Source: Candidatus Aenigmatarchaeota archaeon (GTDB lineage Archaea; Aenigmatarchaeota; Aenigmatarchaeia; QMZP01). Taken from it: a stretch of 33,098 bases of DNA. A program made the translations under genes and the position numbers. The DNA lies in the NCBI GenBank assembly GCA_017609225.1, contig JAFCEK010000002.1, forward strand, positions 1-33,098, in the 5' to 3' direction. This document shows positions 12,399 through 15,290 of this stretch, piece by piece; position 1 is the stretch's first letter, and each line of letters opens with the position of its first letter. The notes beneath the pieces were generated by a model. The model ran no database searches. It was given only the letters and a program-made list of their open reading frames with translations, and was not told where the DNA came from.

Positions 12399-12812
12399 TC
12401 ATTCATTCCCTTCTTCTAATTCCCATTTAAGGCCATAATGTATCAGGCCGTCCTTGCCGTCTTCATATATTTTTCTGAAAACCGCTCTTACCTTTTTTCC
12501 TATTTCTATATTTTCTATATCACCCACAACATGGCCTGCTATATTTGTTCCCTCTTCAAGCTTTATTACAGCAATAGCATATGGAATGTTCTTTTCAAAT
12601 CCTTCTGGAGGAACCTTTATTATAGTATAGGAAATTATTTCACCTTTTCCTGAGAACTGGAAAGATTCAAGCTTTCCTTTTCTTCTGCATTTCGGGCACA
12701 ATATCCTTGAAGGGAAAAAAACAGTGTTACATGTAACGCATTTTGAACCTATTAAATTGTACCTTGATTTCTGCATCCTCCAATGCAATGGAACACTTGA
12801 CTTATGAACCAT
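12399..12812 (-). CDS. DUF35-type Zn-ribbon/OB-fold protein (Zn-ribbon CVTCNTVFFPSRILCPKCR)
   Basis: Two CxxC knuckles, OB-fold ISYTIIKVPPEGFEKNIPYAIAVIKLEEGTNIAGHV, next to thiolase and HMG-CoA synthase. Start placed at 12812 because of the upstream AAGGTGA; the track start is 12821. Confidence 0.9.
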   Translation of the reverse strand: MVHKSSVPLHWRMQKSRYNLIGSKCVTCNTVFFPSRILCPKCRRKGKLESFQFSGKGEIISYTIIKVPPEGFEKNIPYAIAVIKLEEGTNIAGHVVGDIENIEIGKKVRAVFRKIYEDGKDGLIHYGLKWELEEGNE

Positions 12813-13040
12813 ATACTTCACCTTGCAATCTGTTACGGGGACAGCTTTGTTATCAGCATATCCTGTTTTTGGTGTTAGCTATCATTTTATACTTCGCCTT
12901 GTATTCTGTGACGGGGACCACTTTGTTCATCCTGTGTTAGTGGTCAAACCCTTACTTATGCTTTGTATTCTATGACGGAACAGCTATAAATTCAGTGTAG
13001 TCTGTTAGGTAGTAGCTGTCATTTTTTTCATATCACCTCT
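12812..13040 (-). repeat. three degenerate tandem units (about 76, 69 and ~72 nt), each with a 7-bp stem, between the thiolase and DUF35 genes
   Basis: Conserved core, minus sense: AACAAAGCTGTCCCCGTAACAGATTGCAAGGTGAAGTATA / AACAAAGTGGTCCCCGTCACAGAATACAAGGCGAAGTATA / TTTATAGCTGTTCCGTCATAGAATACAAAGCATAAGTA. Plus-strand unit starts near 12812, 12888 and 12957. Confidence 0.85.
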
Positions 13041-13053
13041 TAATCATCATATA

Positions 13054-14235
13054 TTAGCTTGTTATGGGCTCTGGCTCTGTTCCCAGTATATGCACAATGC
13101 TTGTTGCGCCCGAACCTCCTATATTGAGGGCAAGGCCATTGTCTGCACCTTTAATCTGAATTGGCCCGCATTCTCCCCTGAGCTGTCTTACAATATCAAC
13201 AATCTGCCTTATGCCTGTTGCACCGACCGGATGTCCTATTGCCTTCAGACCGCCTGTTGTATTGATTGGCTTTTCTCCCTTTATTGTAATCTTTCCTTCT
13301 TCCACGAATTTTCCTCCCTTGCCTTTTTCACAGAATCCCAGGTCCTCTATTGATATGATTTCATTAATTGAGAAGCAGTCATGAACCTCTGCAAGGTTTA
13401 TATCTTCCGGTTTCATATGTGCCTGCTCATATGCCTTTCTTGACGCAACCTTTGTTGCAGCCATCTCCACTAAACTCTTTCTGTCATGCAGGGCGAGCGT
13501 GTCAGATGCCTGGCCGGAGCCCAGAATCCATACAGGCTGTTTGGCTATGTTTCTTGCAATTCTTTCTGATGCCAGAACAACAGCTGCTGCACCATCTGTT
13601 ATGGGAGAGCAGTCAAGAAGCCTTAAAGGATCTGCAATAACAGGGGACTTTATAACATCATCAACTGTTATCTCTTTTGGAAACTGTGCCTTTTCATTAT
13701 GAACAGCGTTTTTATGGTTGTTTACGCTAACCATTGCCAGCTGCTCTCTTGTGGTTCCAAACATATGCATATGTGCCCTTGCTATTAAGGCATAAAGCCC
13801 TGTGAATGTCAGCCCTATGGAGCTTTCCCATTCCTGGTCACCCGCTCCCATAAGGGTTGCTATTGCATCTGTTCCCTTTAAATCAGTCATCTTTTCTGCT
13901 CCTGCTGCAACAACTATCTCATGCTCCCCTGAAAGTATTGAGTGGTATGCCTTTCTGAACGCCAGCGCACCGGAAGCGCATGCTGCCTCGCATCTTGTTG
14001 CAGGTATAGGGTTCAGCCCTGCCTGGTCTGTTGCCAATGGGGCAAGGTGTTCCTGGCCTATAAACCTTCCTGCAGACATATTTCCTATAAACAGGGCGTT
14101 TATGCTTGAGCCGTCCACTCCCGCATCCTTGATTGCAAGTATGCCTGCCTCTGTAGATAGGTCTCTCAGGGATTTTTCCCAGTGTTCATCAAACTTTGTC
14201 ATTCCTATTCCAATTACAGCAACTCTCTTTGTCAT
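13054..14235 (-). CDS. archaeal acetoacetyl-CoA thiolase (thiolase-domain protein)
   Basis: RVAVIGIGMTKFDEHWEKSLRDL, ATRCEAACASGALAF, NTTGGLKAIGHPVGATGIRQI. ATG at 14235; the track start at 14244 is GTG. Confidence 0.93.
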   Translation of the reverse strand: MTKRVAVIGIGMTKFDEHWEKSLRDLSTEAGILAIKDAGVDGSSINALFIGNMSAGRFIGQEHLAPLATDQAGLNPIPATRCEAACASGALAFRKAYHSILSGEHEIVVAAGAEKMTDLKGTDAIATLMGAGDQEWESSIGLTFTGLYALIARAHMHMFGTTREQLAMVSVNNHKNAVHNEKAQFPKEITVDDVIKSPVIADPLRLLDCSPITDGAAAVVLASERIARNIAKQPVWILGSGQASDTLALHDRKSLVEMAATKVASRKAYEQAHMKPEDINLAEVHDCFSINEIISIEDLGFCEKGKGGKFVEEGKITIKGEKPINTTGGLKAIGHPVGATGIRQIVDIVRQLRGECGPIQIKGADNGLALNIGGSGATSIVHILGTEPEPITS

Positions 14236-14240
14236 GTTAA

Positions 14241-15290
14241 TCACTCTGTTTTCAGTTTTCCCATTATTCTTGCATACCTCCCATAATCAATGTTCTGTTT
14301 TCTTTTTATGTAATATTCTGTTTTTTTCGCCTTTTCCCTTCTTTCAAGAATTTTATCTGTAACATTTATCACAAACGAGTCAGAGCCTGCCCCGGAACCA
14401 TATGATGTCATAAGAATCCTGTCGCCTGGCTTTGCCACATCCAGAACATTGCATAAACCCAGCGGTGAGGAGCCTGAATAGCAGTTTCCTATTCGGGTTA
14501 CAACAAGACTCTGTTTTAGCTGTTCCATTGAAAATCCCAGAACCTTTGCTGCCCTTGTAGGGAATTTTCCATTGGGCATATGAAGAACAACATATGCAAA
14601 ATCCGAGGGTCTTAATCCTAGCTTTTTCATCATGTTTGTTGAGGCAGATACAACATGCTTGAAATATGCAGGCTTTCCTGTAAATCTTGCTCCATGCCTT
14701 GGATAGTCCTGCTTGTCCCTTCTCCAGAAATCCGGAGTGTCTGTTGTGAATGAACATGTGCCTTCTATTTCTGCAAGCGGGTCTTTCCCTATCACAAAGG
14801 CAGCACCACCTGCGGCTGCTGTATATTCCAGTGCATCGCCGGGCCTGCTCTGGCTTGTATCAGCACCAATTGCCATTCCATATTCTATCTGTCCTGCCTT
14901 TACATGGGAAATGCAGCACTGTATGCCTGCTGTTCCTGCCTTGCATGCAAACTCCAGGTCAGCAACCATAAGGTCTGTGCCAAGCTGCAGTGCCTCGGCA
15001 ACTATTGTGCCTGAAGGCTTTACAACATAAGGATGGCTCTCTGAACCTATGTAGAGTGCCCCTATTTTTTCCGGCTTTATGCCTGCCCTTAAAAGCGCGT
15101 TTTTCCCTGCCTCAACGCTGATGGTAACTGTATCTTCGTCTATATCAGGGACGCTTTTTTCCTCTATCCCAAGGCCTTTTTTTATGTTTTCCGGGTTTTC
15201 TCCCCAGACCTTTGTTATCTCTTCAACTGTTATCCTGAATTTTGGTATATAACAGCCATAACCTACTATACCTACGGACATAATCATCAA
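14241..15290 (-). CDS. hydroxymethylglutaryl-CoA synthase
   Basis: [83 protein letters not shown]. Confidence 0.95.

Follow-up and report, generated by a model that had tools for sequence, protein, structure and literature searches.

The three tandem hairpin units that lie upstream of a DUF35-type gene form, judged from sequence, a single array within a family of dispersed, non-coding palindromic repeats found in one order of Aenigmatarchaeota. The initial annotation had described them as a structured element of the DUF35 mRNA leader. The structure was right, but the reading as a DUF35-specific leader was not: units also precede many unrelated genes, and most orthologous thiolase-DUF35 junctions have none.

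The array at the thiolase-DUF35 junction

The units occupy the minus strand of the window, by which we mean the whole stretch of 33,098 nucleotides analyzed here. The relevant features, in the direction of the operon, are:

14241-15290, minus strand: HMG-CoA-synthase-like gene, which opens the operon
13054-14244, minus strand: thiolase gene, the 5' neighbor in the operon, with its stop codon at 13056-13054
13029-13039, minus strand: GAGGTGATATG, candidate original ribosome-binding site and start codon of the DUF35-type gene, read from the sequence 5' of the array
12958-13020, minus strand: unit 1, the most diverged of the three; stem GACAGCT (13020-13014) / AGCTGTT (12985-12979), then the tail; covariance-model match of 53.6 bits
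12894-12945, minus strand: unit 2, of the short-loop type; stem GACCACT (12945-12939) / AGTGGTC (12922-12916), then the tail
12818-12883, minus strand: unit 3; stem GATAGCT (12883-12877) / AGCTGTC (12846-12840), then the tail; covariance-model match of 76 bits
12399-12812, minus strand: DUF35-type gene, ATG at 12812-12810; the N-terminus M-VHKSSVPLHWR aligns with orthologues

The DUF35-type gene was identified from its domains (zf-ChsH2 and OB_ChsH2_C), and the closest relatives of the thiolase are all from Candidatus Aenigmatarchaeota. Since the N-terminus of the DUF35 protein aligns with its orthologues, the point at which the array stops is the true start codon. All six stem arms were found at the minus-strand positions given above, and the three units align with one another, shared 3' flank included, as had been claimed. 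The repeats themselves stood, but their period, put at ~70-76 nt, had to be corrected to 75 and 62 nt between stems and to 64 and 76 nt between flanks. An ATG (13022-13020) lies at the stem base of unit 1 and a TTG at that of unit 2, which at 75.1 bits also scores highest against R2, a cross-genus model. The tail of unit 3 ends in AAGGTGA (12824-12818), 5 nt 5' of the DUF35 ATG, and thus occupies the ribosome-binding position of the gene, in agreement with the proposal that the flank is the likely Shine-Dalgarno sequence. A complete Shine-Dalgarno sequence and ATG, GAGGTGATATG (13039-13029), is left 5' of the array and is possibly the original start region of the DUF35-type gene; such a remnant would be expected if the units had been inserted between that region and the coding sequence.

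The window alone provides weak evidence for the element, whose significance comes from its copies elsewhere in the genome. The folding energy of the minus-strand leader does not surpass that of its shuffles (z = -0.85, compared with z = 0.21 for the plus strand of the same leader), and an Rfam scan of the leader gave no match.

Copies in the source genome and their position at start codons

We searched the source metagenome-assembled genome (MAG; 879,629 bases in 79 contigs, 78% complete). BLAST gave 27 places, all of which, leaving aside the query itself, matched at 70-92% identity. A covariance model, a search that the initial annotation had suggested, was built on 40 units with intact stems and returned 54 matches. 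Apart from a few weak or partial matches, they fall into 18 main arrays, each with between one and about five units. Matches within rRNA genes (L035 and L076) cover only model positions 1-45, lack the tail and look like chance. Examples of the arrays are:

C79: five intact units
C48: array before uS17
C67: array before uL23
C32: array
C11: array before RtcB

Each unit consists of a hairpin, the conserved tail CCGTNACAGATTGCAAGGCGA of about 21 nt and a short spacer, followed by the next unit or by the start of a gene. The hairpin has a stem of 7 bp and a loop of 16 or about 30 nt, so that a unit measures about 52-66 nt plus the spacer. Four stem types recur (GACAGCT, GACCACT, GACTGCT and GACCGCT, with matching 3' arms), in several loop backgrounds and in varying order; among the copies of the source MAG, the tail is conserved and the stem varies while remaining paired. 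Units are precise at their 3' end, at the start codon, and often truncated at their 5' end. Nearly every unit set aside from the model was the one farthest 5' in its array, a copy that is often truncated inside the hairpin and typically lacks the 5' arm. This arm is missing, too, from the solitary unit before uS13.

The compensatory stem changes claimed from the three units of the window recur genome-wide. In the 40 units, whose selection for an intact stem biases the pairing and covariation figures, 99.6% of stem cells are paired (89.5% in shuffles), and the sense-strand stem has a covariation score of 0.358 versus 0.170 for shuffles, a value reached by 0 of 500 shuffles; scores in slid registers are at most 0.079. 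Pairs of near-identical copies, likewise chosen for intact stems, have 5 of their 89 differences in the stem where 18.9 are expected (p = 8e-5), and all keep pairing. In one such pair (L009:377 and L013:97), two of the three differing sites make up a compensatory change. The initial annotation had further noted that G.U pairs occur only in the operon sense. This is true of the cells seen, but it is a weaker argument about the strand than it looks, because most G.U cells fall at pair 1, whose invariant 5' G allows only G.C or G.U; outside pair 1 there are only about three independent events. A symmetric comparison of G.U with A.C was subject to the same fixed G and to unrestricted stem extension, which drew in spurious pairs.

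All 18 arrays are oriented in the sense of the downstream gene. In 17 of them, the last unit stops 5-6 nt before the start codon, after GGCGA or GGTGA, a count that includes by-eye corrections to the table rows of the window, C8b, C37 and C24, which had no ORF or a start farther upstream. In the remaining array, at C9, 17 nt separate the last unit from a RecJ-like gene. The probability of this spacing arising by chance is about 0.0016 per array. Judged by position, the tail of the last unit sits where a ribosome-binding site would belong. The downstream genes include uL2, uS17, uS13, uL16, Spt4, RtcB, an NrdD-like gene, a RecJ-like nuclease gene, an acylphosphatase gene and DUF35; the gene at L012 is read as uL23 from its neighbors and sequence rather than from a family match. 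Ribosomal-protein genes are enriched, with gene totals assumed, in both genomes in which this was calculated: 5 of 18 in the source MAG (p about 0.004) and 5 of 14 in G014 (p about 0.001). The gene at L009 had been considered an aminoacyl-tRNA synthetase; NCBIfam gave no match to it, and its sequence reads like an OB-fold protein. At L010, two adjacent minus-strand genes (567-1079 and 2433-2990) encode distantly related proteins, neither with a Pfam or NCBIfam match; the pair is conserved together in at least 10 genera of the family, and both genes have arrays in the source MAG.

Distribution and turnover within the order

Conservation in related genomes, a test proposed in the initial annotation, gave a mixed result: the family is conserved within the order, in a patchy distribution, but its locations mostly are not. 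Exact matches to the tail numbered 32, in 7 of 41 genomes, versus 1 for a reversed control pattern, and other genera of the order (G036, G028, G024, G014, G020, G009, G005 and G002) carry the tail with different but paired stems. When 160 genomes of the phylum were searched, none from outside the order was among the matches listed. An alignment of 23 short-loop units across genomes, again chosen for an intact stem, contains compensatory changes at 4 of the 7 pairs and has a covariation score of 0.538 versus 0.186. In G014 and G020, units abut start codons as in the source MAG (for example GGCGAGGTATATG); most units of G014 end 5-6 nt before the start codon of the following gene, and several units of these two genomes have loops of 3-5 nt. 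The link to starts is looser in G036, where some units lie 5' of a separate Shine-Dalgarno sequence and some lie in frame within genes.

Several individual loci were recorded. In G014 (L042, contig C22, about positions 480-520), the 3' end of a unit lies, by eye, directly at the start of a tRNA-Arg-like gene; a Y1 transposase gene is about 190 nt away. Units at L031 and L037 (G036) and L039 (G028) are in, or near, frame inside a pilin-like gene region and a TtuA-like gene, and the TtuA-like insertion is common to two species of one genus. G036 also has a second repeat family, interleaved with the first, in which a hairpin with a short loop precedes GGACACAACTCAAATTCAAATNNAAGTGGAA; the pattern used gives no match in the other genomes of the 41. 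Its copies include:

L030, L032 and L037: C6, 2856-2885, and C40, 2361-2390
also C26 at 5128 and C93 at 4885

Comparison of orthologous leaders revealed both occupied and empty sites. The thiolase-DUF35 junction at L050 has units with other stems, and at L051, L053, L054 and L055 it is tight and has no unit. In the TraB-like gene of G036 the element lies in frame, and six other genomes of its family do not have those residues. A hypothetical gene carries units in the source MAG and G020 and a degenerate unit in G014; in most of the other genera, the junction is short and plain. The NrdD-like gene carries units in both the source MAG and G014. Apart from these few shared loci (NrdD-like, the hypothetical gene and DUF35), different genera mostly have units at different genes, and no ribosomal-protein gene is a target in both the source MAG and G014. 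Insertion combined with partial retention and loss would produce such a pattern; more stability would be expected of an ancestral regulon.

Origin and possible function of the repeats

The empty orthologous junctions, the in-frame copy in the TraB-like gene and the turnover of loci between genera argue for a mobile palindromic repeat rather than a DUF35 riboswitch. As would be expected of such a repeat, many similar copies occupy unrelated loci of one genome, and orthologous sites in relatives lack the element (the thiolase-DUF35 junction and the TraB-like gene). We consider it somewhat probable that the family is mobile, a palindromic repeat with a ribosome-binding tail that comes to lie at start codons. 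Units would either insert at start-codon regions or be copied into them, and tandem arrays would result from several such events in succession. Because the 3' end of a unit would supply sequence at the ribosome-binding position and leave the protein unchanged, an insertion would be tolerable. Among near-identical copies with intact stems, loop and tail vary more than the stem, which is not expected of plain decaying relics; pairing of the stem might be kept because mobilization requires it, because copying from one arm to the other re-establishes the palindrome, or because specific folding is required of a leader next to a start codon. A more specific version, which we hold only tentatively, is a hairpin specialized for start codons, which would insert between the start region of a gene and its coding sequence and bring its own ribosome-binding site, giving arrays of exchangeable self-pairing leader modules before ribosomal-protein and other housekeeping genes.

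The covarying stems, the fixed distance to the start codon and the enrichment of ribosomal-protein genes mean that a translational role may apply. Taken further, these features could describe a family of cis-regulatory RNA leaders, in which tandem hairpins beside the ribosome-binding site would modulate translation of growth-related genes via a protein, temperature or a ligand. A sense-strand stem constrained beyond loop and tail would suit such leaders (in units chosen for intact stems, and with weak strand evidence), as would the NrdD-like locus common to two genera and the hypothetical gene common to three. Beyond those few loci, however, there is no stable association with genes across genera: targets mostly differ, and the ribosomal-protein targets of the source MAG and G014 are disjoint. 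Arrays vary from one to five units, a loop motif conserved across genera is absent, and the units of G036 within coding sequence or 5' of a separate Shine-Dalgarno sequence do not fit. We regard such leaders as rather unlikely to be the main explanation, although a leader family may have been assembled by transposition, in which case this reading and the mobile repeat could both be partly true. The units might also be tandem upstream mini-ORFs, with an NTG at the stem base opening a frame of 5-12 codons that ends in the loop, so that termination by the 3' arm would control re-initiation at the next unit. The stem-base triplet is ATG in 16 of the 40 units and TTG in 10, the frame stops before the 3' arm in 35 of 40, and many units in other genera also have NTG there. 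But the triplet is ACG in the remaining 14, and ACG, TCG or CCG in several G036 units; five units have no stop before the 3' arm, the counts are not independent because copying links the units, and no codon-level coding signature was seen. We judge this mechanism improbable.

Folded sites with variable stems, in tandem and on one strand, also recall integron attC sites, whose core sites are RYYYAAC/GTTRRRY. These cores are absent from the unit consensus, no gene cassettes lie between units, the locations are housekeeping genes, and an integron integrase scored above cut-off in 0 of 41 genomes. Archaeal integrons, including those of Aenigmatarchaeota, have been reported (PMC9668308). Without cores, cassettes or integrase, we rejected the identification as attC sites; these or another recombination array would be a most improbable source of the units.

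Returning to the mobile repeat, no mobilizing enzyme was identified among the reverse transcriptases, Y1 transposases and integron integrases looked for. Spread via a reverse transcriptase had been suggested by the 5'-truncated first units, but no RVT_1 match was found in the main carriers (G000, G014, G036 and G028). Mobilization by a Y1 transposase of the IS200/IS605 type was likewise rejected, as Y1 genes are present in the source MAG and G014 and absent from G036, G028, G020 and G009, and the ends of resident IS200-like copies are unlike the unit. Carriage by viruses was also considered: the tail matched exactly once in each of 11 IMG/VR contigs, a number that by our own estimate is about that expected by chance for so specific a pattern in such a large collection. 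A tandem duplication of ~60 nt was observed 5' of an IS200-like Y1 transposase gene (L081, 780-890; G000, contig C54).

Conserved stem sequences and an association with RAYT Y1 transposases characterize bacterial REP and BIME elements. The units described here resemble them as hairpins in oriented tandem intergenic clusters, but have a conserved tail and a variable stem, and Y1 genes do not track them. They share with the ribosomal-protein leader RNAs and riboswitches of Rfam a covarying stem beside the ribosome-binding site, but have no Rfam match, are not tied to one gene family and turn over between genera. Rickettsia palindromic elements (RPEs) are about 150 bp long and noted for in-frame insertion in genes (PMC10969869). 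The likeness, in behavior only, is that of a short palindromic repeat with many copies per genome, some in frame within genes (here in G036); the present units are shorter, abut start codons one way round, are tandem, and have stems that vary yet pair. The PATEs and other small mobile repeats of Haloquadratum go with IS605-type transposons; they too are archaeal, have a palindrome near an end, are too short to encode a transposase and occur in many copies (PMC3119063). The IS605 link is not borne out here, and the material consulted on PATEs does not mention abutment to start codons (PMC3119063). Nor does any of the material consulted on RPEs, PATEs or REPs describe such abutment with a single orientation, and no earlier description of this hairpin family, only of comparable elements, was found in the open-access literature. 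By analogy, the family behaves like RPEs, PATEs or REPs but fails the IS200/605 transposase link where this was tested.

Descriptions of palindromic repeats usually place them between genes or in frame within genes; here, in small DPANN genomes, the units abut start codons with a precision of 5-6 nt and in one orientation. Near-identical copies that differ by a compensatory pair, as in the TGC and CGC stem types, offer a natural test of selection versus arm-to-arm copying. Start-codon specificity of insertion, if real, would render a selfish repeat harmless by an unusual route, and an action of the hairpins on translation, if real, would make the family an example of how transposition can assemble a leader regulon.
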